NCBI GenBank assembly: GCA_014874265.1
Contig: JACWAM010000118.1
Coordinates: 1 to 59,004, forward strand
Length of the DNA: 59,004 bases
Source: Thermoleophilia bacterium
GTDB lineage: Bacteria > Actinomycetota > Thermoleophilia > BMS3ABIN01
Reading direction: 5' to 3'
A program made the translations under genes and the position numbers. Below are positions 4,795-24,797 of the stretch, piece by piece. The notes below the pieces were generated by a model. That model was not told where the DNA came from and ran no database searches. It worked only from the letters and a program-made list of their open reading frames with translations. Position 1 is the stretch's first letter; each line of letters begins with the position of its first letter.

Positions 4795-6021
4795 ATGATG
4801 CTTGCCGATTTGGCTCTGGTGGAGGTTTTATACCGGCGCAGTTCTCCCGTGGTTTCCGACCAGGAGTGGCGGCAGGTTCTAAATGAGATCGAAGCGGGCC
4901 GCTCGCTGGTTGAAAAAGAGAATATCACGCTTTACGGGGAAACGACCGCGCTAGCCGTGGACGCGGGCGGCGCCCGGGAAGCGCTCATACTGGCGGTATC
5001 AAGGGAGCGACGCGGCGGCCAGAGCGATTTCGAGACAGGTCTGCCTCCCATGGAACCGTTGCTTGGAAGCGAGCTGGACCCGGATCTCGGCAATGGCGCC
5101 GCGGTTCTTTTCAACATCCCTCAAGCCTCGCCGGCGACTCGCGATTATTATGCGGTTTCGGGCGGGGATCCTGACCGGGTGCTTACACTAGTATTGCCGG
5201 AGATCGACGCCGCCATTAAAAACTTGCGGTATCAAGTTGCTTACTTTTCCCACCAACGGCTGACGATCGCGGATGAGCGCGCCCAGATCGATGAAAAGGT
5301 GGGCGGGCTGCTTCACGAGCGAGTAGTCAGGGTAATTGATGAACCCGAGGGCGCCGGTCATCTGGAAGAAATGATCGCGAGCCTTTCCCGTATGTTTGGA
5401 ATGCTGGCAACTGATTCTCTGCTTGTCCGCCGTTCTGAGGACAACCTGAAAATGAGGAAGCAGGCGCTGGAATCGGTGCTGAATCTGAACTTGAACAGGA
5501 AGAACGGCGCCAGGGACGAAATCGGAGCATATTGCCTGCAAGCAGCGGCTAGCGACCTGGAAGGGGTACACGCAGAGGGGAAAAAACTTGAGCTCTCCAG
5601 GCAGAACGCCGCGGCGGCCATCGAGGTTGTCAGAACCCAGGTGGAGCTGCTCAGGACCAGAGAAGAAGCCGTTATCCAGGAGCAAACGAAAGAACTGCTT
5701 TCGCGTAGCCTGCTGGTGCAGCAGGAGCGGCTTGCCCTCCAGGTCGCGGCCGGCCTTGTCGAGTTTGTCCTCATTTTTTACTACGTGCTAAAATCTTGGG
5801 AAGGAATTGCCGGACAGGCAGTGTTTGACCGGGCGCCGGCGATGATACGGCTGCTTGCCGTTGGCGGCATGAGCACCGGAGCAGCGATTGGCACGCACTT
5901 TCTGGCCCAGGCGCTTTACAACCGTGCCTGGAAAGCTGCTGGTCTGTGGATCTCGGCAGCAGTTTTGGCTGCGTCTTTTACGGCAATGCTTGTATTGACG
6001 CTCGTGTCGCAACGGGGTTAA
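4795..6021 (+). CDS. Unrecognised coiled-coil membrane protein
   Basis: 408 residues from ATG 4795, possibly about 70 more if a rare start (ATC 4579 or ATT 4600) is used. I do not recognise a family. The middle (about residues 150-320) is rich in Glu, Arg, Leu and Gln with heptad-like spacing, suggesting long helices or coiled coil. The last 90 residues hold about three hydrophobic segments (starting near VAAGLVEFVLIFYYVL, MIRLLAVGGMSTGAAIG and LWISAAVLAASFTAMLVL), so this is a C-terminally anchored protein with a large soluble head. The mini-ferritin gene begins 21 bases after its stop, so the two are probably co-transcribed. Confidence 0.7.
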   Translation: MMLADLALVEVLYRRSSPVVSDQEWRQVLNEIEAGRSLVEKENITLYGETTALAVDAGGAREALILAVSRERRGGQSDFETGLPPMEPLLGSELDPDLGNGAAVLFNIPQASPATRDYYAVSGGDPDRVLTLVLPEIDAAIKNLRYQVAYFSHQRLTIADERAQIDEKVGGLLHERVVRVIDEPEGAGHLEEMIASLSRMFGMLATDSLLVRRSEDNLKMRKQALESVLNLNLNRKNGARDEIGAYCLQAAASDLEGVHAEGKKLELSRQNAAAAIEVVRTQVELLRTREEAVIQEQTKELLSRSLLVQQERLALQVAAGLVEFVLIFYYVLKSWEGIAGQAVFDRAPAMIRLLAVGGMSTGAAIGTHFLAQALYNRAWKAAGLWISAAVLAASFTAMLVLTLVSQRG

Positions 6022-6041
6022 ATTCTGGCAGGGAGAGGTTT

Positions 6042-6239
6042 TTGGACGCAATTGAGCTCATCGAGCAGGCAATCGAGAACGAGAGGCTCGCGGCACAGCG
6101 ATACCGCGAAGGCGCCGGGTCGGCGGATGATCCTGAAACCAGATCGATGTTTGAACAGCTGGCCAGATGGGAGCAAGATCACGAGCGCGTTTTACGGGAA
6201 CGGCTGGCAACACTAAAGCTGATTCGCGGCCAGCGCTGA
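6042..6239 (+). CDS. Mini ferritin-like / half-rubrerythrin protein
   Basis: A 65-residue two-helix protein: the first helix has IENERLAAQRYREGA, the second MFEQLARWEQDHERVL with an ExxH pair. This is half of a ferritin or rubrerythrin four-helix bundle, so a dimer would be needed to make a di-iron site, as in encapsulated ferritins. The frame is open from 5946, but TTG 6042 is preceded by GGGAG at a good distance and starts right at the first helix. It directly follows the membrane protein gene. Iron binding is inferred from the residues. Confidence 0.65.
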   Translation: MDAIELIEQAIENERLAAQRYREGAGSADDPETRSMFEQLARWEQDHERVLRERLATLKLIRGQR

Positions 6240-6256
6240 AAGTTCAGGACTCTCGC

Positions 6257-6460
6257 TCAGCGCTGACGGCCAAAAAGAGCCAGAAAACCAACCGGCGCCA
6301 GCCACAATAAGACCCAAAAACCAACAGTGATGGCAAGAGGAAAGATGGCGCCGCCGCCATCCGAACCGGGGCCAACCGCCTCAAACAAAAACACTCCGGC
6401 ACCTGACAGGCAGATGACAGACCATACGATTATTAGCTGAATTCTGTTTTTTGCTGACAT
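6257..6460 (-). CDS. Small two-helix membrane protein
   Basis: 67 residues with two hydrophobic segments (about 8-27 and 39-62) and a glycine-rich link (GPGSDGGG). It ends in FGRQR, so both termini are probably on the cytoplasmic side. No family is recognised. It is convergent with the mini-ferritin gene and follows the PAPS-reductase-like gene on the minus strand. Confidence 0.5.
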   Translation of the reverse strand: MSAKNRIQLIIVWSVICLSGAGVFLFEAVGPGSDGGGAIFPLAITVGFWVLLWLAPVGFLALFGRQR

Positions 6461-6542
6461 GAATTACCTAAGCCCCGTCAATCCCGACTGAAATAAAACA
6501 TCCTGACTCATTGGCCGCGGCTGTTGCGGTCATCCCGCGTTC

Positions 6543-7247
6543 TTAAAAATAGCCCAGATCGCGCAGTTGCGCCATTATCTGCTCTTTTTCCTGGGCTCTG
6601 CCTTCGCGTTCCGGTCCGTCGCCGCGCGGGCGCGAACTCTTGACCGTGCAGGGCTGGCAGCCGAGACTGCGGTAACCCTGATCATATAGGGAGCAATAGG
6701 GAAGGTTATACTTCTTGATGTATGCCCAAATGTCAAGCTCGCTAAAATGAAGAATTGGCTGCACCCGGGTATGCTCCGTCCGGTCCGAGAAATATTCCTC
6801 ATCCTCACGAGCCGGCTGCTCGTCCCAGCGAACGCCCGTGATCAGCGCTTTCCATCCGTTTTTTGCAACCGCCATGTCGATTGCCTCCGCCTTTAGCACC
6901 AAGCAGCATTGCTCATGGTCTTCGGCAATCTTGATTTTTTTAAGCCCTTCGTGATTCGTGGTAATAACCAGAACAAGGTTCCACTCCCGGGCCAGGCGGT
7001 CACGGAACTCGATAACCTCTTTGAATTTAACAGTGGTGTCAAGGTTAAGCACCGGGATGGGGACGTTGCCTGCACCGATGCGCTTTAGCATATGCAAAAC
7101 AGTGAGCGAGTCTTTCCCGCCGGTGAAGGTAGTCGCTATCTTTCCCTGGAAGCGCTCCAGCGCCTGCCTGAGCACCTCGAGGCTTCGCGCTTCTTTCTCT
7201 TCCAGAGCCTGTTCCTGCTCTGGGAGGCCGCCTGCTTTGTCAGTCAT
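6543..7247 (-). CDS. PAPS-reductase-like PP-loop protein with four-cysteine cluster motif
   Basis: 234 residues of the PAPS reductase / ATP sulfurylase small-subunit superfamily. The PP-loop FTGGKDSL binds an adenylyl nucleotide. A CC pair (HEQCCLVLK) and a later GCQPC give the four cysteines that hold a [4Fe-4S] cluster in APS reductases. The C-terminal catalytic ECGLH motif of true reductases is absent; the protein ends at AQLRDLGYF. So it is probably not a standard thioredoxin-dependent sulfate-assimilation reductase. ATG 7247 has AGGG five bases upstream. The frame continues up to 7373, but its first codons there lie in a miniature element. Confidence 0.8.
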   Translation of the reverse strand: MTDKAGGLPEQEQALEEKEARSLEVLRQALERFQGKIATTFTGGKDSLTVLHMLKRIGAGNVPIPVLNLDTTVKFKEVIEFRDRLAREWNLVLVITTNHEGLKKIKIAEDHEQCCLVLKAEAIDMAVAKNGWKALITGVRWDEQPAREDEEYFSDRTEHTRVQPILHFSELDIWAYIKKYNLPYCSLYDQGYRSLGCQPCTVKSSRPRGDGPEREGRAQEKEQIMAQLRDLGYF

Positions 7248-11716: not shown

Positions 11717-11725
11717 TTTCTCAAC

Positions 11726-11797
11726 ATGGTGATGAAGCTCACCCAAATGCGCCGGCGGCGCTGATGGCTTCTACAGATTTTCTGTAGGAGTTTTTTT
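11726..11797 (+). ncRNA. Fluoride riboswitch 1 (crcB motif) with terminator
   Basis: GGTGATGAAGCTCACC opens the motif, followed by CAAAT, a GCGCC/GGCGC stem and TGATGGCTTCTACAG. The pseudoknot pairs GAAGC with GCTTC. The same CTTCTACAGA strand can instead pair with TCTGTAGGAG to make a 10-bp hairpin followed by seven T, which is an intrinsic terminator. Aptamer and terminator are therefore mutually exclusive: fluoride binding should turn expression on. The downstream genes encode the fluoride channel and a DUF190 protein. Confidence 0.95.
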
Positions 11798-11842: not shown

Positions 11843-12217
11843 ATGGAAAACATTCTGGTAATAGGGACTGGCGGCTTCTTCGGCGCCGTCAGCCGCTACG
11901 CCGTCGCCCTCTGGATCGGCGAGCGCTGGGGGCGCAGCTTCCCACTGGGAACGCTGGTGATCAATGTCAGCGGCAGCTTCCTCATCGGTCTGCTGATGTT
12001 CATTCTCAGCCAGAAGGTGCTGGTCAATCCCCTCTGGCGTTCGCTGCTGGTGATCGGCTTCCTGGGCGCCTACACCACTTTCTCCACCTTCGAGTACGAA
12101 ACAGGTAATCTGTTGACCGATGGCGAACTCCTCTACGCAATGGTAAATGTCGTGGCCAGCGTGCTGGTCGGTTTAATGGCGCTGAAGCTCGGCGAGCTGA
12201 TTGCGAAAATAATATAG
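11843..12217 (+). CDS. crcB: Fluoride ion channel Fluc/CrcB
   Basis: A 124-residue, four-helix membrane protein that exports fluoride as a dual-topology homodimer. The family motifs are present: GGFFGAVSRY near the N-terminus, GTLVINVSGSFLIG with the pore Asn, and GFLGAYTTFSTFEYE with the central Phe/Thr pore residues. The length is typical. Its transcript carries fluoride riboswitch 1. There is no clear ribosome site upstream; the preceding leader ORF may provide coupling. DUF190 follows 7 bases after the stop. Confidence 0.95.
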   Translation: MENILVIGTGGFFGAVSRYAVALWIGERWGRSFPLGTLVINVSGSFLIGLLMFILSQKVLVNPLWRSLLVIGFLGAYTTFSTFEYETGNLLTDGELLYAMVNVVASVLVGLMALKLGELIAKII

Positions 12218-12224
12218 GAGCAAG

Positions 12225-12566
12225 GTGTTCACGGGTCCCGCGAAAAAACTGACAATTTATGTGGATGAAAGGGACAAATTTCATCATAAGCCGGTGTACG
12301 AGGCTGTGGTCGATATCCTTTACCAGAACCACATCATGGGACTGAGCGTCTTTAGAGGGATCGGCGGCTATGGCTCCAATGGCGTCCTGCACACTGCCAA
12401 GATCCTCGAACTTTCAACCGATCTGCCGGTAAAAGTGGAGGCAATCGATGCCGCGGACAAGATCTACGAAGTGCTGCCGGAGATCGCCGAGGTCGTCGAA
12501 AAGGGTCTCATTGAAGTTTCTGACACAAATGTAATCAAGTGCTGCCGTTCGAAAGAGGATACCTGA
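12225..12566 (+). CDS. DUF190 family protein, PII-like fold
   Basis: 113 residues of the DUF190 family, seen from KLTIYVDERDKFHHKPVYEAVV and the conserved GLSVFRGIGGYG. These proteins have a ferredoxin-like fold related to PII signalling proteins and are very often encoded with crcB, but their role in fluoride resistance is not settled. The GTG start at 12225 has AGGAG four bases upstream. It is co-transcribed with crcB under riboswitch 1. Confidence 0.9.
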   Translation: MFTGPAKKLTIYVDERDKFHHKPVYEAVVDILYQNHIMGLSVFRGIGGYGSNGVLHTAKILELSTDLPVKVEAIDAADKIYEVLPEIAEVVEKGLIEVSDTNVIKCCRSKEDT

Positions 12567-12649
12567 CCGGGAGATAGAATCAAATTACAGCTGATCCCGG
12601 GCAGGGCTGTTTTGCCGGCCTGTTTTCAGGGAAAAAACCAATAAAAAGC

Positions 12650-12728
12650 GGCGATGAAGCTCGCCCTTAAGCGTCCTCACGGGGACTAATGGCTTCTACA
12701 GACCGGCAGATCTGTGGGAGCTATTTTT
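12650..12728 (+). ncRNA. Fluoride riboswitch 2 with terminator, before dynamin-like gene
   Basis: GGCGATGAAGCTCGCC, a GTCC/GGAC stem and TAATGGCTTCTACAG match the crcB motif. The pseudoknot GAAGC/GCTTC is conserved. CTTCTACAGA can pair with TCTGTGGGAG (10 bp with G-T pairs), followed by CTATTTTT: a terminator that competes with the aptamer. The stem also covers the GGGAG ribosome site of the next gene. I see no convincing promoter of its own between DUF190 and this element, so it may sit inside the crcB transcript. Confidence 0.93.
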
Positions 12729-14492
12729 ATGGAAAAACTGGATACATACTCATCGACCAGACAGCGCCTTGAAGAGATTCTGGCCCACCTGGCGGGAAGC
12801 GTCAGGGAAGAATCTTCCCGTCAGGCACTGGCGGATGTCAGCAGCCAACTGGCTGACAACCGCTTTTCGCTGGTCGTGGCCGGGCAGTTCAAGCGGGGCA
12901 AGACTACCTTTATCAACGCACTTCTGGGCAGCAACCTGCTGCCGGTCGCCATCATTCCGGTGACCTCGATCATCACCGTCGTTGGTTATGGCGAAGAGCT
13001 GAAGATCGAGCTGTTTCTTAAAGACGGCTACCACCAGGACATTGACCGGGATCAGCTGCCGCAGTACATCACGGAAAAACAGAACCCGGACAACATGAAG
13101 CAGGTCGACCGGGTCGAGATCCTCTATCCGTCACCATATCTCAAAAATCATGTTCAGCTGATCGACACCCCCGGCGTCGCTTCCATCCACAGCCACAATA
13201 CGGAGACAACATACGGTTTCCTGCCCAAGGCCGACGCCGCGGTCTTCATGGTCAGCGTCGACCCGCCCCTGACCGAGGCCGAGCTCCACTTCCTCGCGGA
13301 CCTGAAGGAGTACGCCGCCCGCATCTTCTTTGTCCAGAACAAGATCGATACCGTGGATGAAAAGGACCGGGCCGAGTCGCTGGCCTTCACCCGCAGCGTC
13401 ATTGGGGAACGGCTGGGATTTGACAATGCCACGATCTATCCGCTTTCGGCAAAAAACGCTCTGGAGGGCAAGCTGTCGGGCGATCCGGAGATGGTTACCG
13501 GCAGCGGCCTGCCCGTGTTCGAGGAAATGCTGGACCGGTTCCTGATGAATGAAAAGGGCAGTGTAATCCTGGCTTCTGCCGCCGGCAAAACGCAGAACAT
13601 CATCGCTCAGGAGACCTTTTCATCACGCCTGATGCAACAATCGCTTCAGGAACCGCTAAGTAACCTGGAAGAAAAGATCGCCCTCTTCCAGGAGTCCCTC
13701 AAGGAAATCAGCCTGGAACGATCCGACAGCAAGCTTTTAGTCAGGCAGGAGGCCAACCGCCTGGTCAATGAAATTCTTCTGCCGGATCTGGAAGCGTTGA
13801 AGGAGCGGGAAACGCGGCAGCTTCAGACAGAGCTTGACATTATGGCAGAAACAGCAGGCGATCTGGGCAATCGCGATTTTGCCGAGGCGCTTGATGAACT
13901 GCTCAGGGAACGGGTCCATGACATCTTCAACCACTGGCGCCTCCACGAACAGGAGCAGCTTAACGGCAGCCTGGCCCGGATGCTCAGGCGGCTGGTGGAG
14001 CGGACCAACCGCATCATCGAGCGTCTGGCGGCGGTCTCTTCAGAGCTTTTCGGCACTGAGATGAGCGGCTTCACCGTCGACGAGTCCCTGGCGGGGGAAT
14101 CTTCTTTCAGCTTCAAGCTTGATGAGGATGTGAAGATCGCCCTGGAAAGCATGACGGAAGCAGCAGCGCTGATGCTGCCGAAGCGGCTGGCCCACCGCCG
14201 CATCCTGGGCGAGGCGCGGGAGCGCGCCGCCAAGCAGATCGACCGTCACTGCGGCCGGATGCGCCATGACCTCACCGGCAGGATTGAGGTGACGGTGGCG
14301 GATTTTAGCCGGCGGCTGGACGGCGCTGTCGACGCCGCCATCCGCGGCATCGACGAGGCGCTTATGGCAGGCCAAGAGGCACGCACGAAAAGCGCGGCCG
14401 AGCTGGAAAGCTTTGAAATCGAACTGGCCCGGCGGCTGAGCGCTCTGGAGGAGGCGTCGGCGGAAATCAGGCAGCTGGTGCGGGAACTTTAA
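12729..14492 (+). CDS. Bacterial dynamin-like GTPase under a fluoride riboswitch
   Basis: 587 residues. The N-terminal GTPase domain has G1 GQFKRGKTTF, G2 PVTSIITV, G3 DTPGVAS and G4 VQNKID. The rest is long amphipathic helices (neck and trunk) without clear membrane-spanning segments, as in bacterial dynamin-like proteins that bind and remodel membranes. Its target is unknown. ATG 12729 follows GGGAG at a good distance; the GTG at 12714 would lie in the terminator stem. It is the first gene after riboswitch 2, and the hydrogenase-related operon follows 54 bases later. A role in protecting or remodelling membrane during fluoride stress is inferred. Confidence 0.88.
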   Translation: MEKLDTYSSTRQRLEEILAHLAGSVREESSRQALADVSSQLADNRFSLVVAGQFKRGKTTFINALLGSNLLPVAIIPVTSIITVVGYGEELKIELFLKDGYHQDIDRDQLPQYITEKQNPDNMKQVDRVEILYPSPYLKNHVQLIDTPGVASIHSHNTETTYGFLPKADAAVFMVSVDPPLTEAELHFLADLKEYAARIFFVQNKIDTVDEKDRAESLAFTRSVIGERLGFDNATIYPLSAKNALEGKLSGDPEMVTGSGLPVFEEMLDRFLMNEKGSVILASAAGKTQNIIAQETFSSRLMQQSLQEPLSNLEEKIALFQESLKEISLERSDSKLLVRQEANRLVNEILLPDLEALKERETRQLQTELDIMAETAGDLGNRDFAEALDELLRERVHDIFNHWRLHEQEQLNGSLARMLRRLVERTNRIIERLAAVSSELFGTEMSGFTVDESLAGESSFSFKLDEDVKIALESMTEAAALMLPKRLAHRRILGEARERAAKQIDRHCGRMRHDLTGRIEVTVADFSRRLDGAVDAAIRGIDEALMAGQEARTKSAAELESFEIELARRLSALEEASAEIRQLVREL

Positions 14493-14500
14493 CGGCATCC

Positions 14501-14523
14501 CCATGCGGCTTTGACCCGCATGG
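14501..14523 (+). repeat. Hairpin between dynamin-like gene and Ehr operon
   Basis: CCATGCGG (14501-14508) and CCGCATGG (14516-14523) form a perfect 8-bp stem with a 7-base loop. There is no T-run after it, so it is not a normal terminator. It might be an RNA processing or stability element that separates the two parts of one transcript. Confidence 0.55.
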
Positions 14524-14546
14524 CGGCAACGCCGGACAGGAGCCTT

Positions 14547-15497
14547 GTGGCAGACAGAATCGCATTTAACATGATACAGGTACTGGTTGTCATGGCGTTC
14601 GCGCCGCTGGCCTCCGGCGTGCTCTCCCGCCTCAAGGAATTGGTTCAGTCCAAACGCGGTCCGAGCATTTTTCAGCCCTATCGCGATCTGTGGAAACTAT
14701 TTCACAAGGATGAGATTGTTTCCGAAGACAGTTCCTGGATCTTCCTGTTTACGCCTTACATGATTTTTATCACACCCATTTTCGTGACGCTGCTGATCCC
14801 GGTGCTGACTAATTATCCGCTCTTCTTTGCTTTCATGGGCGACATGATCGGCGGCGGGTTCGTACTGGCACTGGGCGGATTCTTCGCCACCCTGGCAGCG
14901 ATTGACACAGCCAATCCCTACGGCCCCATGGGCGCCAGCCGCACGCGGATGGTGGGCTTCCTGGCCGAGCCGGTGTTCATGATCGTTTTCTTCACCGTCT
15001 CATTTGTCGCCGGCTCCACCATTCCCTATATCGTCCAGGAAAAATGGGTGACCCCGGTGGCGAATTTCTTCATGCCGTCGCACGTGCTGCTGATGCTGGC
15101 ATTCCTGATGCTGATCCTGGCCGAAGGCGGCCGCATCCCGGTGGATAATCCCACCGGCCATTTTGAGTTGGCGATGATTGACGAATCTAAATCGCTCGAA
15201 TACTCAGGCCGGGGGTTCGCGCTGGTGAAGTGGGGCGGCTTCATGAAAATGTTCGTGCTGATGTCCATCTTCCTCAACGTCCTCGTGACACCCTGGGGGC
15301 TGGCTGCTGAAGTGTCGGCCGGCGACATTCTGTTGTCCATTCCGCAAGTGCTGCTGAAGATCTTCATCTTTTTGTTACTTCTGGTTGTCATCGAGTCTTC
15401 GCTCTCCAAGCTGCGGCTGTTTCGCATCAGCGAATTTCTGGGAGCCGCGTTCATTATCTGCGTAGCGGCGATGATCGCGCAGGTTTTTACATATTGA
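14547..15497 (+). CDS. Ehr complex membrane subunit, HyfC/NuoH-like
   Basis: 316 residues, about eight transmembrane helices, homologous to HyfC/HycD and complex I NuoH, the subunit joining the membrane arm to the peripheral arm. Family features include LVQSKRGPSIFQPYRDLWKLF in the first loop, and AEGGRIPVDNPTGHFELAMID and ESKSLEYSGRGFAL, with the charged residues of the coupling region. GTG 14547 is four bases after AGGAG; the frame is open from a TTG at 14511 without family-like sequence. It is the first gene of the complex. Confidence 0.9.
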   Translation: MADRIAFNMIQVLVVMAFAPLASGVLSRLKELVQSKRGPSIFQPYRDLWKLFHKDEIVSEDSSWIFLFTPYMIFITPIFVTLLIPVLTNYPLFFAFMGDMIGGGFVLALGGFFATLAAIDTANPYGPMGASRTRMVGFLAEPVFMIVFFTVSFVAGSTIPYIVQEKWVTPVANFFMPSHVLLMLAFLMLILAEGGRIPVDNPTGHFELAMIDESKSLEYSGRGFALVKWGGFMKMFVLMSIFLNVLVTPWGLAAEVSAGDILLSIPQVLLKIFIFLLLLVVIESSLSKLRLFRISEFLGAAFIICVAAMIAQVFTY

Positions 15498-15515
15498 CCG
15501 ATTATTAATGGAACC

Positions 15516-16220
15516 ATGAACTCGACCAATCAGCTACTGGATAACCTCAATGCCCTGGCAGCAGCGTTGTTTCTGCTGACTGCTTTTGGCATGGTGGCGA
15601 TGCGCCAGGCGCGGGGCGTTCTCAACCTGTTCATCGCTCAGTCCCTGCTGCTGTCCGCCTCCGCTCTGTTTTTGGGTCTGCGTTTCCACTCGGACCATCT
15701 TTACGGCGTTGCTCTGGTGGATATCATCATCAAGCCGGTAATCATTCCCTGGCTGCTGAGGCGGACAGCGCCGGCAGAGATCTATACGCGCCGGGAGGTC
15801 AACCAGGCGCTGAATATCCCCACCGCCTTGCTGGCCGCGCTGGCGCTGGCAATCCTCGCCTACTTTCTGGCACAGCCCATTCTTGGCGCAGTGGCGCCTC
15901 AGTTCCGCAACCCCAACGTTCCGATCGGCATCGCTGGTTTGCTGCTGGGGGCATTCACGATCACGGTCCGGCGAGAAGCCGTGCCGCTGCTGGTTGGCCT
16001 CCTGGCCATGGAAAACGGCGCCTTCCTGGCGGGCATCGCCATCGCCCGCGACCTGCCGCTGATCGTCGAACTGGCCGTGGCCTCGGATGGTCTTATTGTC
16101 GTCTTCATCATGGGGGTACTCACCCGTGCCGTCTATCGGCAGATTGGTTCGACGGCGGTCGGCGAGCTGGCGAGCCTGAAAGAGGCTCCGGAAACGGCGG
16201 GAGAGGAGAGGACCGCATGA
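15516..16220 (+). CDS. Ehr complex membrane subunit, HyfE-like
   Basis: A 234-residue very hydrophobic protein resembling HyfE and, in its first half, NuoK (VDIIIKPVIIPWLLRR). About seven membrane helices are apparent. HyfE-type subunits belong to the membrane arm of group 4 hydrogenase-like complexes. Its end overlaps the next start by ATGA, so they are translationally coupled. Confidence 0.85.
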   Translation: MNSTNQLLDNLNALAAALFLLTAFGMVAMRQARGVLNLFIAQSLLLSASALFLGLRFHSDHLYGVALVDIIIKPVIIPWLLRRTAPAEIYTRREVNQALNIPTALLAALALAILAYFLAQPILGAVAPQFRNPNVPIGIAGLLLGAFTITVRREAVPLLVGLLAMENGAFLAGIAIARDLPLIVELAVASDGLIVVFIMGVLTRAVYRQIGSTAVGELASLKEAPETAGEERTA

Positions 16221-17710
16221 GCGTCGTCCTCCTTCTGCTGCTCCCCGTGATTGCCGCGGCCCTGGTGTTGCTTCCCTTCAGGAAATTATGGGCGCCAGCC
16301 GTAACCATTGCTTCCTCGCTGGTGATCCTGGTCCTGGCAGCGCGGATCGCCTGGCAGGCTTCACAAGGGGAATCCGTGACCTCGGTTCTGGGAACCGGCT
16401 TTTTCAAATGGATTAATGTAGACAGCCTCAGCGCTCTGATCCTGCTGCTCATCGCCTTTGTCAGCACCACGGCGGCCATTTACTCCGCCGGTTATATGGC
16501 GCATGGAGATTACTCATCCTGGAGGCTGCGCATCTACTATGTCAACTTCAACGCGTTCGTCTTCTCCATGCTTGCCATTCCCGTTCTTTCCGAACCGACG
16601 CTGGTCTGGATCGCCGTCGCCCTGACAACCCTGACGTCGGCGCTGATCGTCTCTTTTGAAAACACACGCGACGCGCTGGAAGCGGCATGGAAGTACGTGG
16701 TGCTGTCACTCATGGGAGCCGGCATGGCGCTATTCGGTTTCCTGCTGCTGTTCGCCGCCTTTGAGGCCTCCGGCAGCACGGCGGCGTTTACCTGGAATGA
16801 TCTGGGCAACGCCGCGCCCGGGATGCCGCCGGTCCTGCTCATGACCGCTTTCCTTTTCATCCTCATTGGCCTTGGCACTAAAACCGGTCTGGTGCCGATG
16901 CACGCGTGGCTGCCGGATGCTCACAGCCAGGCGCCCTCGCCGGTCTGCGCCCTGCTTTCCGGGATCGAGACGTCGGTCATCCTTTACGTGATCATGCGCC
17001 TGTTTCCAATCATGCGGGCGGTGCCGGGGTCCCATGCCGCGACATGGGCAATCGTGCTGGGCCTGATATCTGTGGGTACCGCCGCGTTCCTGCTCTTGCA
17101 GGTAAACGATTACAAGCGCATGTTTGCCTTTTCCACGGTGGAGCACATGGGCATCATCCTGACGGCGATCGGGCTGGGCGCCAGTAACGCCAATTACGGG
17201 GCGCTTGAGCAGGTCGTCAGCCACAGCGTCACCAAGTCATTTTGCTTTTTTGCCGCCGGCGCCGTTTTGCTGGCGGTGGAAACGCGGCAGATCGCCTCGG
17301 TGCGCGGGCTCATCCGCCGCTCGCCCGCGGCCGGGGCGGCCCTCGTTTTTGGCGGCCTGGCCATAGCCGGAGCGCCGCCCCTGGCCGTCTTCCTCAGCGA
17401 ATTCTCCATCATGAAGGCCGGCCTGGCAGAGGGCAGCTACGCAGTCATCGGCCTGCTTTCGTTTTTTATCCTGATCGCGTTTTTTGGCGTCATGATGCAG
17501 ATCAACCGGATGGTCTTCAGCGCCGGGAATACTGAATCAGCGGGCGTGGCTTCGGGAGTTTCTTCCCGCCCTGGCAAGAAATTTCATCTGCCCTTTAGCT
17601 GCCGGCTGGCGCTTGCCATTTCCGGCGCACCTGTCATTTTACTTGGCTTTTATATTCCCCCGCCCATGCAGGACCTGCTGGCTCACGCGACCGCTATTTT
17701 GACAAAATGA
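16217..17710 (+). CDS. Ehr complex antiporter-like subunit, HyfF/NuoM-like
   Basis: 497 residues with about 13-14 transmembrane helices of the Mrp/NuoL-M-N antiporter type. The typical LPDAHSQAPSPVCALLSG segment carries proton-channel residues and FAFSTVEHMGIIL the conserved helix after it; LGTKTGLVPMHAWLPDAH has the channel Lys. It is likely to move H+ or Na+ when the peripheral arm is oxidised or reduced. It overlaps its neighbours by 4 bases on both sides. Confidence 0.9.
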   Translation: MSVVLLLLLPVIAAALVLLPFRKLWAPAVTIASSLVILVLAARIAWQASQGESVTSVLGTGFFKWINVDSLSALILLLIAFVSTTAAIYSAGYMAHGDYSSWRLRIYYVNFNAFVFSMLAIPVLSEPTLVWIAVALTTLTSALIVSFENTRDALEAAWKYVVLSLMGAGMALFGFLLLFAAFEASGSTAAFTWNDLGNAAPGMPPVLLMTAFLFILIGLGTKTGLVPMHAWLPDAHSQAPSPVCALLSGIETSVILYVIMRLFPIMRAVPGSHAATWAIVLGLISVGTAAFLLLQVNDYKRMFAFSTVEHMGIILTAIGLGASNANYGALEQVVSHSVTKSFCFFAAGAVLLAVETRQIASVRGLIRRSPAAGAALVFGGLAIAGAPPLAVFLSEFSIMKAGLAEGSYAVIGLLSFFILIAFFGVMMQINRMVFSAGNTESAGVASGVSSRPGKKFHLPFSCRLALAISGAPVILLGFYIPPPMQDLLAHATAILTK

Positions 17711-19278
17711 TCAATTTAACCGATCAGATTGAAGAACGCTGGGGAGGCAAGGCCCAGGCGGGTTTTAACGTTATCAATTCCGCCTGGGAAGTAACCTGCT
17801 CTCAAACGGCGCTGGTGGAGATATGCGAATGGATTTTTGCTGATCTCGATTTTAGTTTTGCCACTCTGGTTGTCGAGGAAGAAGCGGATGAGTGGCGCCT
17901 GCGTTACATCTTTTATGGGGGGAGTAACGGTTGGGTCCACGTGCTGGCCAGCTCGCCTCGTTCAGAACAGACCTTTCCCAGTATCGTCGGTCCCGTGCAC
18001 GCCGCCGACTGGCATGAGCGTGAAGCCGAGGACATGTTCGGCCTCAACTTTGAGGGCCATCCTCGCCTGGGAGATTTTATCCTCCACGATGACGCCTGGC
18101 AGGAGGGCGTCGAGCCGATGCGCCATCAGTTTGACCCGCAGATGGCACTGCTTTACCGCAAGCCGGTTGAGGACTGGCGGCCACGGCGCATCGTCCAGGA
18201 GCCCGGCGCCTTTATCATGCCCGTCGGACCAAAATATTCCGGAGTCGCCGAGTCGGCTCAGTTCCTGCTCGAGACCGTCGGCGAAGACGTCATTCGGTTC
18301 TCGCCGCGGCTGTATTACAAGTGGCGCGCGGTAGAGAAGCTTGCTGAGGGAAAGACAGCAGATGAAGTCCTGCTGCTTGCCGAGCGCTTTGCGGCCACGA
18401 CGGCGTTTGCCCATGGCCTCGCCTTCTGCCAGGCAGTCGAGAAAATCTGCGGCGCAAAGGTCCCGCAACGGGCCAGGGCGCTGCGCGTGTTTTTGGCGGA
18501 GCTGGAGCGGCTGCGGCAGCACACCGGCCAGGTTCAGGCGATCTGCGAATCGACGGCGCTGGTGGTCGCGGACAGCCAGAGCGGCATCCTGGAGGAAGAC
18601 CTGCTCCGCATCAGTGGCGAGCTGGCCGGCCACCGTTACCTCTTCGGCCTGCTGGCGCCGGGCGGTCTGACTACCGACCTTTCGGATCAGGCATGTCAGC
18701 ATGCGCTTGAGCGTTCGCGAGAGGCGCTGGCCGGCCTGGATGAGCTGGAAACGCAGCTGCGCGTCTCCAGCAGCTTTCTTGACCGCCTGGAAGAGGTTGG
18801 TTTCGTGCCGACCGGCACCGCCCTGGATTATGGCCTTCTAGGGCCGGTGGCGCGCGCGGCCGCGGTCACCGACGACCTGCGCCGCAAGCAGCCCTACCTG
18901 GGATATGACCTGTTTCAGTTCGAGGTGCCCAGCGAGCGGGAGGGCGACGGTTACGCGCGGCTGCGGGTGCTGTTCTCAGAATGCCGGCAATCCGTGCTTA
19001 TCATGGGACAGGCGCTGGCAGCGCTCGCGGAGGGCAGGGTGCGCGAACCGGTCCGGTTTCATGCAGGCGCCGCGCTGGGTTATGTAGAGGCGCCGCGCGG
19101 CGGCGCTTTCCACTGGGTGCGACTGGACGAAGGGGGAAGGGTGCTTCGCTACCATATCACTTCGCCTTCTTTTGTCAACTGGCACGGTTTTCACCTCGCC
19201 GTGGAAAATTTTGCGTTTCAGGACTTTCCCATCATGCTCGCTTCTTTCTACCTTTCCGTCGCGGAGAATGACAGGTGA
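17707..19278 (+). CDS. Ehr large subunit: NuoC-NuoD/HycE-like without Ni ligands
   Basis: 523 residues. A NuoC-like domain (about 1-160, with HEREAEDMFGLNFEGHP) is fused to a NuoD / [NiFe] large-subunit domain. In hydrogenases the first Ni motif is CGxC before SxxH. Here the aligned stretch is ERFAATTAFAHGLAFCQAVE, so both cysteines are Ala and Thr. The last motif, DPCxxC, aligns to ASFYLSVAENDR, so those cysteines are Ser and Glu. All four Ni ligands are missing while the flanking residues are well kept. It therefore cannot bind a NiFe centre and belongs to the energy-converting-hydrogenase-related (Ehr) group; its redox partner is unknown. Confidence 0.9.
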   Translation: MINLTDQIEERWGGKAQAGFNVINSAWEVTCSQTALVEICEWIFADLDFSFATLVVEEEADEWRLRYIFYGGSNGWVHVLASSPRSEQTFPSIVGPVHAADWHEREAEDMFGLNFEGHPRLGDFILHDDAWQEGVEPMRHQFDPQMALLYRKPVEDWRPRRIVQEPGAFIMPVGPKYSGVAESAQFLLETVGEDVIRFSPRLYYKWRAVEKLAEGKTADEVLLLAERFAATTAFAHGLAFCQAVEKICGAKVPQRARALRVFLAELERLRQHTGQVQAICESTALVVADSQSGILEEDLLRISGELAGHRYLFGLLAPGGLTTDLSDQACQHALERSREALAGLDELETQLRVSSSFLDRLEEVGFVPTGTALDYGLLGPVARAAAVTDDLRRKQPYLGYDLFQFEVPSEREGDGYARLRVLFSECRQSVLIMGQALAALAEGRVREPVRFHAGAALGYVEAPRGGAFHWVRLDEGGRVLRYHITSPSFVNWHGFHLAVENFAFQDFPIMLASFYLSVAENDR

Positions 19279-19282
19279 CCGC

Positions 19283-20044
19283 ATGAGCCGCTGGGTTATA
19301 AAAGGGATTCGCACAGGAATAAAAACCACCACATACCCGCGCGGCACTGAGAGTGCACCCGGCACGACCCCTGGCCTCCCCGGCAGCGGCGCGCCTGATA
19401 GCGAGGCAGCACAAGCACTAGTGGAAATTTGCCCCACGGGTGTATTCACGGTCGCCGGCGGCGAACTGGTGGCGGACGTGCGCGGCTGTATTCATTGCCT
19501 GCGATGCGTCCGCCTGACCCATCAGCCGGCGAACTGGCAAGCCGGTTCTTTTGAGTGGGCAGCGGAAACAGTGCCGGTAAATAAACTTCCGGGCGCATTT
19601 AAAAAATCCGTACATATCTGCGTCGTTGACACCGGCGACTGCGGCGCCTGCTTAAACGAAGTAAGGCAGCTCAACAATCCCTACTACAACATGCATCGCC
19701 TGGGACTCTTCATCACGCCCACGCCGCGCCACGCCGACATCCTGCTGATAGTGGGCCCGGGCACCGACCACATGCGGTACGCCCTCCAGAAAATCTACGC
19801 CGCCATGCCCTCCCCAAAGCGCGTGGTGGCTGCCGGCGCCTGCGCGCTTTCAGGCGGAGTTTTTGCCGGGAGCTTTACCTGCAGTGAGGGTATTGGTGAA
19901 ACAATGCCGGTGGACGTGGAAATTCCCGGATGTCCGCCGCCGCCTCTGGCAATTTTGCACGGCTTGCTGGTGGCGGCCGGGCGCAGACCGCCAGCCGGCA
20001 GCCCCGCTACCACGGCAAAGACGGAAACGCCCGGAACGGCATGA
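19283..20044 (+). CDS. Ehr small subunit: ferredoxin domain fused to NuoB-like domain
   Basis: 253 residues from ATG 19283; the frame is open from 19172 but only inside the previous gene. The N-terminal part carries ALVEICPTG and GCIHCLRC, which give four cysteines for one [4Fe-4S] cluster, as in HyfH/HycF. The C-terminal part is NuoB/HycG-like with DTGDCGACLNEV, AAGACALSGG and IPGCPPPP, the full set for the proximal (N2-like) cluster. So the electron path is kept even though the large subunit lost nickel. It overlaps the next gene by ATGA. Confidence 0.88.
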   Translation: MSRWVIKGIRTGIKTTTYPRGTESAPGTTPGLPGSGAPDSEAAQALVEICPTGVFTVAGGELVADVRGCIHCLRCVRLTHQPANWQAGSFEWAAETVPVNKLPGAFKKSVHICVVDTGDCGACLNEVRQLNNPYYNMHRLGLFITPTPRHADILLIVGPGTDHMRYALQKIYAAMPSPKRVVAAGACALSGGVFAGSFTCSEGIGETMPVDVEIPGCPPPPLAILHGLLVAAGRRPPAGSPATTAKTETPGTA

Positions 20045-22236
20045 TGGACGCCTTGATGCTCATCATCATTTTTCTGGGGCTTTGCGGCGCCGGCGTCTTG
20101 CTGTCCCTCCTGGCGCCGCCGGCGAGGCAGGGAAGTGTGCTAGCCTGGACGGGGTGCCCGGCGGCCCTGGCGCTGGTCCTGGCGGGAGGGGCAGCGCTGC
20201 TGGCGGGAGATACCTTTAGTCAGGCGCTCTGGTCGCTGCCGGGATTGTCAACCCTGACTCTCAGCCTCGATCCGGTGTCGGCGCCGTTTCTGGTCGTGAC
20301 CGGCCTGGTGCTGTTCCCGGCTTCAATCTTTGCCGCCAGCGAGCTAAACCGCGAACCGGGACGGGGCGGCTCTGCCAAACGTTTGCTTCCTTTCTCGTTT
20401 TCTTATCACAAGCGCGCCTTCACCGTGATGCTGCTGGGGCTGTACGCCGCCATTGGCCTGATCTTCGTGGCCGGAGACGTTCTCTTGTTTATGCTCGCCT
20501 GGGAAGTCATGTCAATTCTGGCGTATCTGCTGATCGTATCCTTAAGCAGCGGGGAAAAAGACGGGGCGGGCGCCGGCTATCTTTTGCTGGCCATGGGTGA
20601 AGCGGGGACCCTGGCCGCAGTTGTTGGTTTTCTGCTCATGGCCGCCGGCGCCGGGTCGCTTGATTTCGGCGCGATCCATGCCGCGGCTCCAGGTTTTAGC
20701 AACGGACTGAAGTGGTCGGTCTTTCTGCTCTCGTTTTTTGGTTTTGGCGTAAAAGCAGGTTTGCTGCCGGTTAATTTCTGGTTGCCCAGAGCTTATGTTG
20801 CCGCATCCCGCGCTTTTGTCCCGGTGCTGGCCGGGGCCACTCTCAACCTGGGCCTGTACGGGATTATGCGGGTAAACGCCGGCCTGATGCCGGCGACCAG
20901 CGCCGGGCCGGGCCTGATCGCGCTCGTCATCGGCGCGCTCACAGCCCTGATTGGCATCCTTTATGCGACCATAGACAAGGATCTCAAGCTCGTGCTGGCG
21001 CATAGCTCAATTGAAAATGCCGGCATTGTTATCGCTGGTTTTGGCGCGGGGATGGTGTTTGTGGCCACCTCACACCCGGTGCCGGCCGCGATTGCTTTTA
21101 TGGCGTCAATCTACCATCTGATCAATCATTCGCTTTACAAGACGCTTTTGTTTTTCGGGGCCGGCGTGGTGGAGACCGGGACCGGCATCCGCAATATCAA
21201 CAAGCTTGGCGGCCTCATCAAGTGGATGCCATGGACGGCGGCCGCCTTCCTTGCCGGGGCCCTGGCGATCTCGGCCCTGCCGCCACTTAACGGCTTTGTC
21301 AGCGAGTGGCTCACGCTGCAGACTTTGCTGCGCGCCGCCGATTTGTCCTCGGCTGCAGAAAAGCTGTCTTTCGCGCTGGCCGGGGCCGGCCTGGCGCTGA
21401 CGGCGGCGCTGGCCGTTACCTGCTTTGTCAGAACCTTCGCCATGAGCTTCCTGGGCATGCGGCGTACAAGAGAAAATCAGCCTGTCCAGGAGGCTAAAAT
21501 GGGCGCGCTGGCGCCAATGTTTATTCTCGCCGTTCTCTGCCTCGGCCTGGGCGTTTTGCCCACGTATGTGATTTCCGCGCTCAGTCCGGCAACGACCCAG
21601 CTGGCCGGCGCCAGCGCCGCTGATGCCCTGGTGCCGCCCTTCTTCTCATCCAATCCGGAGCATAGTCAGCTGCCGGCCGGTTTTGTTCAGGACTTTCATA
21701 ATCTGGGAGCCCAAGTGGGGCAAAGCCTCTTGCCCGGCCGCGGCCTGGTGGTGCTTCACCGCGGTGGTGAGGACAACCCGGTGGTTTTTGCCATGTCAAC
21801 ATCTTACATGGCAGTTGTTTTAATCATCCTGCTGGGCGCGACTTTCGTTGTTACCCGGGTCTGGTTAACTCGCAGGCGGAGGCTGCTTAGGCGAAAGCGC
21901 TGGGATGGGGGGATGCGCCGGCTGCTGCCGGAGATGACCTACACGGCGACCGGCTTCTCCAACCCGGTGCGAGTGATTTTCGACGCCGTCTTCAGGCCCA
22001 CAACCGTGGAGGACACCCGCGAGACGGTTAGCAGGCATTTCCGCACCGCCATACTGCGCGAGCGTGATCGAACCTATCTCGCTGATAAGCTTGTTTTTCG
22101 CCCGGCAAGAGCGGCGCTGTTAAAAGTCGCGCGCGCACTGGCATATCTACACCAGGGCAAGCTCAACGCTTACGCGGCTTACGCGCTTTTTGCGCTCCTG
22201 GCCGTGCTCGTCGTCTATTTAATCCAGACATCATGA
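20041..22236 (+). CDS. Ehr complex large antiporter-like subunit, HyfB/HycC-like
   Basis: 731 residues with about 15-16 transmembrane helices. It has the NuoL/M antiporter core (FFGFGVKAGLLPVNFWLPRA, then LVLAHSSIENAGIVIAG and INHSLYKTLLFFGAGVV) and a long C-terminal part with a last helix (ALFALLAVLVVYLIQT), as in HycC/HyfB. With the HyfF-like protein this makes two ion-pumping modules in the complex. The start at 20041 overlaps the previous stop; the next start codon would be 20044. Confidence 0.9.
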   Translation: MMDALMLIIIFLGLCGAGVLLSLLAPPARQGSVLAWTGCPAALALVLAGGAALLAGDTFSQALWSLPGLSTLTLSLDPVSAPFLVVTGLVLFPASIFAASELNREPGRGGSAKRLLPFSFSYHKRAFTVMLLGLYAAIGLIFVAGDVLLFMLAWEVMSILAYLLIVSLSSGEKDGAGAGYLLLAMGEAGTLAAVVGFLLMAAGAGSLDFGAIHAAAPGFSNGLKWSVFLLSFFGFGVKAGLLPVNFWLPRAYVAASRAFVPVLAGATLNLGLYGIMRVNAGLMPATSAGPGLIALVIGALTALIGILYATIDKDLKLVLAHSSIENAGIVIAGFGAGMVFVATSHPVPAAIAFMASIYHLINHSLYKTLLFFGAGVVETGTGIRNINKLGGLIKWMPWTAAAFLAGALAISALPPLNGFVSEWLTLQTLLRAADLSSAAEKLSFALAGAGLALTAALAVTCFVRTFAMSFLGMRRTRENQPVQEAKMGALAPMFILAVLCLGLGVLPTYVISALSPATTQLAGASAADALVPPFFSSNPEHSQLPAGFVQDFHNLGAQVGQSLLPGRGLVVLHRGGEDNPVVFAMSTSYMAVVLIILLGATFVVTRVWLTRRRRLLRRKRWDGGMRRLLPEMTYTATGFSNPVRVIFDAVFRPTTVEDTRETVSRHFRTAILRERDRTYLADKLVFRPARAALLKVARALAYLHQGKLNAYAAYALFALLAVLVVYLIQTS

Positions 22237-22254
22237 AGGCCATCTGCGACTCAA

Positions 22255-22488
22255 ATGAATTCTTCCGGACATGAAAATTTGCTGGCGTTGTTTCTTGTCT
22301 TAGGCCTGGTATTCGGTGTTCTTGCGGGATTGATGGCTTTTCTGATTACTTATAACGAGTACAGTCACCATTATCATGAAAGCAGAGCGCCGCTCTCTGC
22401 GTCGTTACGTACGGCCCTTTTCGCATTTGCGGTCATGTTCGCCGTGACTATCATCGCGGGTTATGTTTTAGCCAGCTACATTCTTTAG
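22255..22488 (+). CDS. Small two-helix membrane protein at the end of the Ehr operon
   Basis: 77 residues with two hydrophobic helices (about 9-31 and 50-74) and a His/Glu-rich loop between them (YNEYSHHYHESRAP). No family is recognised. It begins 18 bases after the HyfB-like gene, on the same strand. It could be an accessory subunit of the complex. MITE copy 2 is inserted directly after its stop codon. Confidence 0.6.
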   Translation: MNSSGHENLLALFLVLGLVFGVLAGLMAFLITYNEYSHHYHESRAPLSASLRTALFAFAVMFAVTIIAGYVLASYIL

Positions 22489-22628
22489 ACTGGTCATGCA
22501 GGTAACTCAGGTAAACTGTCGTTCTTGAGGAGCGCAGCGACGAAGAATCTGATTTTTAAACCGGATATCCTTCGGCTTCGCCTCAGGATGACGATCAGGG
22601 CAGCACCTGAGCCAATTGTATGATCAGT
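22489..22628. mobile_element. MITE copy 2 (140 bp)
   Basis: The right end is TTGTATGATCA (22616-22626), preceded by ACCTGAGCCAA, identical in layout to copy 1. The left end has decayed to TGGTCATGCA plus GGTAACTCAGGT. The interior has inverted arms of the GAGCGAAGCGAAGGATCTG type. The flanks TTCTTTAG (22481-22488) and TTTCTTAG (22628-22635) are similar but not identical, so the target duplication is doubtful or old. It lies between the last Ehr-operon gene and the phosphoesterase gene. Confidence 0.75.
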
Positions 22629-22717: not shown

Positions 22718-23416
22718 ATGCGCACTCTGGTTTTATCCGACATCCACGCCAATATTGACGCCCTTGAAGCCATTGATGAACCCTGCGACGCGGTCCTGTT
22801 TCTGGGGGACGTGGTTGACTACGGCCCCGAACCGGCCGCCTGCATCAACTGGCTGCGGGAGCGCGGCGCCAAACGCGTGCGCGGCAACCACGATAACGCC
22901 GTGGCCTTCCGGATGGACTGCGGCTGCGGTGAAGCTTACAGGCATCTTTCGGTGCAAACGCGAGAGTACATGTGGCAAGTGCTGGATCAGGAAAGGCTCG
23001 ACTGGCTGGGGGCGGCGCCCATCAGCCTGGAGCTGGAAAGCGGCGGACACCGCGTCCTTGCCGTCCACGCCGCGCCCAGCGATAACCTGTTCAGGTATGT
23101 AACTCCGGAGGCCAGCGACGCCGATCTGGCCGCCGAAGCAGCGCTGACGGATGCGGACATCATCCTCATGGGCCATACCCACCGTCCTTTTATCCGCGAA
23201 GCCGGCGGCAAACTGCTGGTCAATGTCGGCAGCGTTGGCCAGCCCCGGGACGGCATTCCCATGGCTAGTTACGCCGTCATCGAGGGCGGCCAGGTGGAGC
23301 TAAACCAGGCGCAGTACGATGTCGAAGCTGCCGTGGCCCGGCTCAGGCGCCTGCCCCTTGAGGAGAGGGCGATCAACGAACTCGCCTATATCCTTAGGAA
23401 CGCCGGCATGCCCTGA
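22718..23416 (+). CDS. Metallophosphoesterase, YfcE/MJ0936-like
   Basis: 232 residues with the dinuclear metal phosphoesterase motifs in order: SDIHAN, GDVVDYG, GNHDNA, and MGHTHRP near residue 150. The substrate is unknown; relatives act on cyclic or small phosphodiesters. AAGGAG is 5 bases before the ATG. It is the first gene after MITE copy 2 and has no obvious operon partner. Confidence 0.9.
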   Translation: MRTLVLSDIHANIDALEAIDEPCDAVLFLGDVVDYGPEPAACINWLRERGAKRVRGNHDNAVAFRMDCGCGEAYRHLSVQTREYMWQVLDQERLDWLGAAPISLELESGGHRVLAVHAAPSDNLFRYVTPEASDADLAAEAALTDADIILMGHTHRPFIREAGGKLLVNVGSVGQPRDGIPMASYAVIEGGQVELNQAQYDVEAAVARLRRLPLEERAINELAYILRNAGMP

Positions 23417-23552
23417 AGCGCATATTGGATTTAGGATATTAATATTGATGGAAAAAGACGCCCGAATAATTAAAATCTGCCAACCCTTGCAGATTGAAAA
23501 TTGGTAAATCCCCTTGTAGCAATAAGTGCCGTGCCCGTGTTTTAATCCATGG

Positions 23553-24797
23553 ATGGCCGAGAATAAGGAAACGGGGCTACCTGATGAGGCCCTCCCCGAT
23601 GCGGTAGCAGCGATGGTGGGCGAGAAGTCTCCCGTTCCCGGCATCAGCCGCAATGTCTTCATCCTGGGCATCACCAGCTTCTTTACCGATCTTTCGACCG
23701 AGGTTGTCTATCCACTGGTGCCACTGTTTCTGACCTCCGTTCTGGGGGCGCCTTTTTTTGTGGTTGGCTTGATCGAGGGCATCGCCGAAAGCACGGCCAG
23801 CCTGCTTAAGATCTTTTCCGGCTGGATATCTGACCGCATGCGCCGGCGGCTGCCGCTGACGGTGATCGGGTACAGCGTTTCCGGATTTGCCAAGCCTCTC
23901 CTCGCGCTAGCCACCGTATGGCCGGTTGTGCTTGTGCTCCGCTTTGGCGACCGCTTGGGAAAGGGGATCCGCAACCCGCCGCGCGACGCCCTCATCGCCG
24001 ATTCTTCCGAACCATTGAGGCGCGGCCGCGTCTTCGGCTTTCACCGGGCGATGGATACAGCCGGCGCCTCTTTAGGCGCGATCGCCGCACTGGCGGCGCT
24101 GGCGATCCTGGGCGAGCGGTACCGGATCATCTTCCTTCTTTCCGCGGTACCGGCGGTGCTGGGTGTGGTCAGCCTCTTTTTCATCCGTGAGCGCGTCCAC
24201 CCGCACCGGCAGACGCTGCCGCCCCGGCTCTCACTATCACAACTCGACCATCGCTTCAAAATATTCCTGCTGGCCAGCGCTATTTTTGCCCTGGGAAACT
24301 CCAGCGACGCTTTCCTGATTTTACGAGCAAAAAACCTGGGGCTCTCGGCGCTTGGAGCGGTGATGGCTTACGTGATTTACAACCTTGTTTACGGTTCCCT
24401 GTCGATGCCGGCGGGTTCGCTCTCCGACCGGATCGGCCGCCGGCTAGTGATCGCTGGCGGATTTGTCATCTTTTCATTGGTTTACGCCGGTTTTGCCCTG
24501 GCGGCGGGAGCCCTTTTTGTCTGGCCGCTGTTTGCTGTTTACGGCATCTACATGGCAATGACTGAGGGAGTCGGCAAGGCATTTGCCGCCGATATGGCGC
24601 CGGCCGGCGTCCGCGGCACCGCTTTGGGAGCTTATCAGACCGTGACCGGAGCCCTGACTTTTTTCTCCAGCCTGATCGCCGGGATCCTTTGGGATACGAT
24701 CGGGCCGTTTGCTCCCTTCCTTTTCGGGGCCGCCGCCGCGATCGTGGCGGCAGGCGTGCTCGTAAACGCTACACGGGTCCGCCCGTCAGCCTCCTGA
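23553..24797 (+). CDS. MFS transporter
   Basis: About 414 residues with 12 predicted membrane helices and the MFS loop motif GWISDRMRRRLPL between helices 2 and 3, repeated as GSLSDRIGRRLV in the second half. LGKGIRNPPRDALIADS is a signature of one MFS subgroup of unknown substrate. ATG 23553 starts a soluble N-terminus of about 40 residues; the longer frame from 23526 is less likely. It stands alone. Confidence 0.88.
   Translation: MAENKETGLPDEALPDAVAAMVGEKSPVPGISRNVFILGITSFFTDLSTEVVYPLVPLFLTSVLGAPFFVVGLIEGIAESTASLLKIFSGWISDRMRRRLPLTVIGYSVSGFAKPLLALATVWPVVLVLRFGDRLGKGIRNPPRDALIADSSEPLRRGRVFGFHRAMDTAGASLGAIAALAALAILGERYRIIFLLSAVPAVLGVVSLFFIRERVHPHRQTLPPRLSLSQLDHRFKIFLLASAIFALGNSSDAFLILRAKNLGLSALGAVMAYVIYNLVYGSLSMPAGSLSDRIGRRLVIAGGFVIFSLVYAGFALAAGALFVWPLFAVYGIYMAMTEGVGKAFAADMAPAGVRGTALGAYQTVTGALTFFSSLIAGILWDTIGPFAPFLFGAAAAIVAAGVLVNATRVRPSAS

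Follow-up and report, generated by a model that had tools for sequence, protein, structure and literature searches.

A dynamin-like GTPase subfamily linked to fluoride riboswitches in Bacteria and Archaea, and its Ehr neighbour in a Thermoleophilia genome

Fluoride riboswitches serve to discover fluoride-resistance genes. The partners of the crcB motif (RF01734) named in the accessible text of two studies include crcB, Na+/H+ antiporters, enolase, mutS and formate hydrogenlyase-type genes (PMC2864571; PMC11139923). Among bacterial dynamins, B. subtilis DynA functions in membrane surveillance and fusion (PMC8844932). Here we describe a window of 59,004 nt, the whole stretch of DNA analysed, from a Thermoleophilia bacterium (contig JACWAM010000118.1), in which a gene for a dynamin-like GTPase (DLP) directly follows a fluoride riboswitch and precedes the genes of an Ehr-type complex (Table 1).

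The whole 2.0-Mb genome (G000) contains two fluoride riboswitches, both inside the window. The first one forms, together with crcB and a DUF190 gene, a unit located just upstream of the DLP riboswitch that was absent from the earlier, sequence-only reading of this DNA. That reading had placed a crcB-motif riboswitch with a competing terminator directly before DLP, and covariance-model scoring against the curated Rfam cut-off for RF01734 (34 bits), together with folding, bears this out. The pseudoknot of the DLP-side aptamer pairs GAAGC of the P1 loop (12656-12660) with GCUUC of the 3' strand (12692-12696). The latter strand lies within the 5' arm of the terminator hairpin, so that the two structures are predicted to be mutually exclusive; none of 200 shuffled sequences folded as stably as this terminator. 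A likely Shine-Dalgarno sequence (GGGAG, 12716-12720) is located inside the 3' arm of the terminator, and the U-tract reaches the ATG of DLP. Judged by its sequence, the leader is an ON switch, possibly acting on both transcription and translation. No consensus promoter was found in the sequence just 5' of the DLP riboswitch, and transcription may thus partly originate from the crcB unit.

Table 1. Features of the fluoride-linked region of the window (positions in the window; all on the + strand).
Feature	Position	Strand	Evidence
First fluoride riboswitch aptamer (RF01734), 5' of crcB	11719-11780	+	39.8 bits, cut-off 34
Intrinsic terminator overlapping 3' end of first aptamer	11766-11792	+	12-bp stem, then T run
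crcB (Fluc fluoride channel)	11843-12217	+	Pfam CRCB 3.3e-28; TIGR00494 above cut-off
DUF190 protein	12225-12566	+	Pfam DUF190 2.3e-32
Second fluoride riboswitch aptamer (RF01734)	12641-12705	+	43 bits, cut-off 34, E 1.3e-8
Terminator hairpin and U-tract before DLP	12688-12728	+	fold -20.4 kcal/mol, z -5.6
Dynamin-like GTPase F-DLP, 587 aa	12729-14492	+	Pfam Dynamin_N 4.2e-27
ehrB-like membrane subunit (NuoH/HyfC-like), GTG start	14547-15497	+	NADHdh 2.4e-32
ehrC-like subunit (HyfE-like)	15516-16220	+	hydrogenase 4 membrane subunit 3.5e-24
ehrD-like antiporter-like subunit (HyfF-like)	16217-17710	+	Proton_antipo_M 1.7e-44, HyfF models
ehrL large subunit (HycE/NuoCD-like), NiFe cysteines missing	17707-19278	+	FHL subunit 5 match 4.5e-50
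ehrS small subunit (NuoB-like)	19283-20044	+	Oxidored_q6 7.9e-24
ehrA antiporter-like subunit (HyfB-like)	20041-22236	+	Proton_antipo_M 2.2e-41, HyfB models
Small membrane protein, 77 aa	22255-22488	+	no Pfam match; homologues beside phosphoesterase in G002, G003
Calcineurin-like phosphoesterase, probable distal operon gene	22718-23416	+	Metallophos_2 1e-22
MFS transporter	23526-24797	+	MFS_1 7.8e-39; homologue of MFS behind DLP in other genera

The GTPase, designated F-DLP, comprises a G domain (residues 46-250 approximately), a helical stalk (276-441 and 485-586) and a tip predicted with low confidence (442-484). Its G1 to G4 motifs are intact, with GQFKRGKT, T83, DTPG and NKID conserved, and 20 columns are invariant. 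The AlphaFold model (pLDDT 87, pTM 0.74) shows a dynamin fold with a long helical stalk, for which Foldseek retrieved BDLP (6.6e-22) and IniA (3.8e-21); the same two proteins were matched in a PDB profile search. Global TM-scores between F-DLP and these structures are low (0.39-0.44), as flexible domain angles can cause. The poorly modelled stalk tip is only mildly hydrophobic and carries a nearly invariant proline (P484), and no transmembrane helix was found in the stalk. Superfamily homology suggests that F-DLP acts on membranes. Plasmid-borne spread of the gene was rejected, since no plasmid record covered 80% of DLP.

A first search with the protein only yielded 14 loci from named genomes, among them Desulfobacterota, Armatimonadota, Actinomycetota, Bacillota, a cyanobacterium and the archaeon Methanolinea; an additional record carrying the label Parcubacteria may be a binning error. 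An aptamer scoring above the Rfam cut-off was present just upstream of DLP in 10 of the 14. The gene order in a Bacillota MAG is riboswitch-crcB-DUF190-DLP, and no fluoride riboswitch was found at this cut-off in the cyanobacterial locus. The closest DLP relatives in the window's family likewise show the riboswitch linkage. We next used a profile made from 23 DLPs to search samples of four phyla, whose names were inferred from the named loci serving as search centres, and scanned the genomes found with RF01734. This profile was built on protein similarity alone, and is therefore not selected for riboswitches. The sequence-only reading had proposed to look for crcB-motif RNAs near dynamin-like genes; an aptamer was found on the same strand within 350 nt upstream of 67 of 89 F-DLPs (at least 300 bits), at a median distance of 54 nt (range 8-301), and within 4 kb for 12 more. 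Among 24 dynamin relatives with weaker scores (100-250 bits), a single one has an upstream aptamer, and chance adjacency was rejected on this contrast. Adjacent aptamers occur in 20/22 cases in Actinomycetota, 11/11 in Halobacteriota, 30/38 in Desulfobacterota and 6/18 in Bacillota, where many of the remaining F-DLPs are operonic. At the threshold searched, some F-DLPs show no riboswitch in their vicinity; weak aptamers may have escaped the batch RNA searches, in which filtering was stricter. DLP is sporadic (42/247, 12/197, 42/296 and 18/199 genomes in the four samples, some weak relatives included), and 85 of 87 carriers possess at least one fluoride riboswitch as compared to 28 of 103 sampled DLP-free genomes. 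Since related genomes are not independent, Fisher values overstate the significance of such contrasts. The genomes are probably mostly MAGs.

Riboswitch-linked DLPs are clustered yet spread across the whole protein tree. Among the linked aptamers, 50 of the 51 that could be parsed retain the complete pseudoknot (11 others were not parsed by our simple pattern), and compensatory changes at two covarying positions give four combinations of base pairs. Of the 60 adjacent aptamers, 34 are overlapped by a hairpin with a U-rich tail, in a scan without shuffled control: 5/5 in Bacillota, 14/20 in Actinomycetota, 14/24 in Desulfobacterota and 1/11 in Halobacteriota. Given this last figure, the archaeal switches probably use a different platform. 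The proposal that DLP is under fluoride control thus extends to a linkage conserved in the four surveyed phyla and an Armatimonadota MAG, Archaea included, and such control is strongly supported by these sequence comparisons. More distant dynamins from the window's class, about 20% identical (L028/L056 in G062 and L029/L057 in G052), are also preceded by a fluoride riboswitch at a distance of about 60-120 nt, and the linkage may therefore reach beyond the main subfamily. We also observed back-to-back fluoride riboswitches on opposite strands, about 40-165 nt apart (G190, G249, G154, G324, G412, G398, G559, G597 and G678), serving divergent genes, often with DLP on one side.

The commonest neighbours of DLP in 41 loci were MFS transporters (12), CPA2-type exchangers (11), a second exchanger group (4), DUF190 (9), enolase (9), CrcB (7), MutS-V proteins (4) and UspA (4), among which crcB, DUF190, enolase, CPA2, MutS-V and UspA are known fluoride-resistance genes. 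The operon is modular in the window's family, DLP being followed by Ehr (window, G001, G004) or CPA2 and then, in some members, by enolase, phosphoesterase and MFS. The phosphoesterase also occurs downstream of DLP in G002, G003, G004 and G013, and the window MFS is 54-79% identical to those downstream of DLP in L011, L201, L048, L049 and L051; these two genes, with homologues behind DLP in sister species, had not been included in the earlier reading. The gap of 229 nt between the small membrane protein and phosphoesterase genes contains a repeat-like stretch, ccttcggcttcgcctcaggatgac (22525-22600), that might end the transcript. Enolase is intact in G013, whereas in G001 and G004 the DLP-Ehr cluster ends with broken remnants of the gene (L050, about 17743-18343; L047, about 2-907). 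Tandem pairs of short proteins whose sole Pfam match is MutS domain V were seen beside fluoride riboswitches (L188 9041-12219, L199 2094-5119, L200 9623-12672, L216 17216-19470), and may correspond to the mutS-like target reported in 2010. Three contigs (L216, which is G643:C39; G592:C89; G968:C12) carry islands of at least six fluoride riboswitches within about 11-39 kb; G643 has Ehr and tandem MutS-V genes and no DLP match. Near an archaeal F-DLP, L193 encodes a plasma-membrane-type H+-pumping P-type ATPase (4355-6829), a possible proton-balance partner.

The six-subunit Ehr-type complex and small membrane protein previously noted behind DLP were recovered in the order ehrB-C-D-L-S-A (14547-22236). 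RVCGIC aligns with RFAATT in EhrL, whose C-terminal SFYLSVAENDR has no DPCxxC, and no CxxC was found in L1 or at the EhrL C-terminus in any of 11 loci compared. As both NiFe-ligating motifs are missing, a NiFe hydrogenase function was rejected; hydrogenase activity is not to be expected of the complex. We identified no gene for formate dehydrogenase among the six of the cluster.

DLP and ehrB are separated by 54 nt containing a GC-rich hairpin without U-tract and no promoter match, in agreement with the earlier view that no intrinsic terminator lies between them, and DLP and ehr are likely co-transcribed in the window. The hairpin could also be taken to favour a window riboswitch that controls DLP alone, ehr being separately controlled and a chance neighbour, as could the absence of Ehr after DLP in G002, G003, G013, G015 and G018, where a CPA2 antiporter occupies the Ehr slot. 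However, besides the features of the gap, the close Ehr type adjoins DLP in the three out of three genus members that have Ehr and in G639 outside the family, and a fluoride riboswitch is located directly 5' of ehrB in five other genomes (L215, L216, L218, L219, L221). These five genomes mark Ehr as an independent fluoride target and make an unrelated passenger unlikely, and we regard control of DLP alone as rather improbable. No riboswitch was found in short flanks of Ehr-like paralogues of family members, nor before the other type of Ehr, in which EhrA comes first (L217, L220, L222), or the L223 paralogue. Ehr follows DLP in three of the six species of the window's genus; apart from the window, close Ehr homologues in the family are found only in G001 and G004, both directly behind DLP. 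Ehr was rejected as the main conserved partner since it stands behind DLP in these three species only, the riboswitch-DLP pair being the constant element. G639 has neighbouring but separately switched units, riboswitch-ehrBCDLSA and then riboswitch-DLP-MFS, and in four genomes (G643, G653, G662, G633) a riboswitch precedes ehrB by 346-354 nt, at loci where DLP gave no match. The joint fluoride-controlled DLP-Ehr system of the sequence-only reading is therefore supported as regards fluoride control of each part, and narrowed as regards their union, a local one: adjacency is conserved in half of the genus and not in other family members.

The subfamily is almost always under fluoride riboswitches, amid CrcB, enolase, CPA2, MFS and MutS-V genes, and on these grounds we take DLP to be a dedicated fluoride-stress protein. 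Our main reading, to which we assign a probability of roughly 0.6, is that the locus is a fluoride-inducible resistance operon in which DLP acts on the membrane and Ehr or CPA2 restores ion balance. The prevalence of MAGs could suggest a linkage arising by assembly artefact or chance, or a degenerate aptamer, but aptamer scores exceed the Rfam cut-off, the pseudoknot covaries, carriers include apparently complete single-contig genomes and the arrangement recurs in unrelated phyla; the chance of such an explanation is negligible. GTPases bind GDP-AlF4-, and riboswitch-driven resupply of a fluoride-inhibited enzyme has been proposed for enolase and pyrophosphatase. DLP could likewise be inhibited by the transition-state mimics AlF4- and MgF3-, the riboswitch compensating for this loss and the normal task of the protein being unrelated to fluoride; the presence of enolase, a classic fluoride target, in DLP operons fits this idea. 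However, DLP is sporadic and nearly confined to fluoride-riboswitch genomes, unlike a topped-up housekeeping enzyme, which favours a dedicated role, and we consider resupply unlikely. DLP might instead cluster, stabilise or traffic CrcB/CLC-F or antiporters rather than repair lipid damage, since CrcB-DUF190 or CPA2 genes often adjoin it and L014 is a single riboswitch-crcB-DUF190-DLP array. Many DLP loci nevertheless have no nearby channel gene, and different transporters serve as partner (CrcB, CPA2, MFS, P-type ATPase), which argues against one specific client and leaves this role quite improbable.

Returning to a dedicated membrane-acting DLP, its most likely function, judged by homology, is to protect or reseal the membrane, and a combination of membrane remodelling with an ion pump fits the Ehr-to-CPA2 swap in sister species. 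HF entering the cell would release protons and fluoride, and fluoride would bind the nascent leader. In its absence, the leader would form the terminator and bury the DLP ribosome-binding site; in its presence, the aptamer pseudoknot would capture the shared strand and block the terminator, and read-through would yield DLP and downstream genes, as in the established crcB riboswitch mechanism. In the window's genus Ehr would be among these, possibly along with the phosphoesterase and MFS. With an architecture like that of BDLP and IniA, DLP would respond to HF/fluoride stress by assembling on the cytoplasmic membrane to tether, reseal or reorganise it. Ehr, or the CPA2 antiporter instead, would restore ion or proton balance, enolase would substitute for the inhibited enzyme and CrcB would export fluoride, roles that are either established or plausible. 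The broader idea that fluoride toxicity includes membrane injury, countered by a dedicated bacterial and archaeal dynamin subfamily through tethering or resealing, is more tentative and we rate it slightly below even odds.

A dynamin subfamily almost wholly under a fluoride switch in four surveyed phyla, Archaea among them, suggests that fluoride toxicity has a membrane component, and that many microbes may make a dedicated membrane-remodelling protein once fluoride turns toxic. Bacterial and archaeal dynamins, most of which lack a defined chemical inducer, would thereby gain one. If true, the fluoride response would have a membrane-remodelling arm that had so far escaped notice, combined with ion-pumping modules that can replace each other (Ehr or CPA2). 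A dedicated dynamin subfamily as a major target of a known riboswitch class is apparently undescribed. The sequence-only reading knew of no dynamin-like target, and our literature search for fluoride riboswitch or crcB with dynamin, which gave no paper linking both, contains nothing against this; the gene tables of Baker 2012 lay outside that search, and priority is not certain.

The locus shares with the described crcB-motif regulons (Weinberg 2010, PMC2864571; Baker 2012 as cited in PMC11139923) the aptamer class, the overlapping terminator and the ON logic, and differs by its dynamin-like GTPase, a target that the accessible portions of PMC2864571 and PMC11139923 do not mention. The window Ehr has in common with Ehr and Mbx complexes (PMC6349859) a NuoB/CD/H-like core, Mrp-antiporter-like subunits and the loss of NiFe ligands; unlike those described, it is linked to a fluoride riboswitch and DLP. 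It belongs to the same protein superfamily as the formate hydrogenlyase genes reported downstream of crcB-motif RNAs (PMC2864571), from which it differs by a large subunit without NiFe cysteines, and Ehr may be what was listed there as formate hydrogenlyase. F-DLP shares the dynamin G domain and long helical stalk with Nostoc BDLP, mycobacterial IniA, the Campylobacter DLP pair and B. subtilis DynA. BDLP and IniA are its best structural and profile matches among bacterial dynamins, and both IniA and DynA have been associated with envelope stress. In contrast to these proteins, F-DLP constitutes a subfamily of its own, in which a conserved N-P-x-N segment separates G2 from G3, is mostly encoded by a single, unpaired gene, and is predicted to be controlled by fluoride riboswitches.
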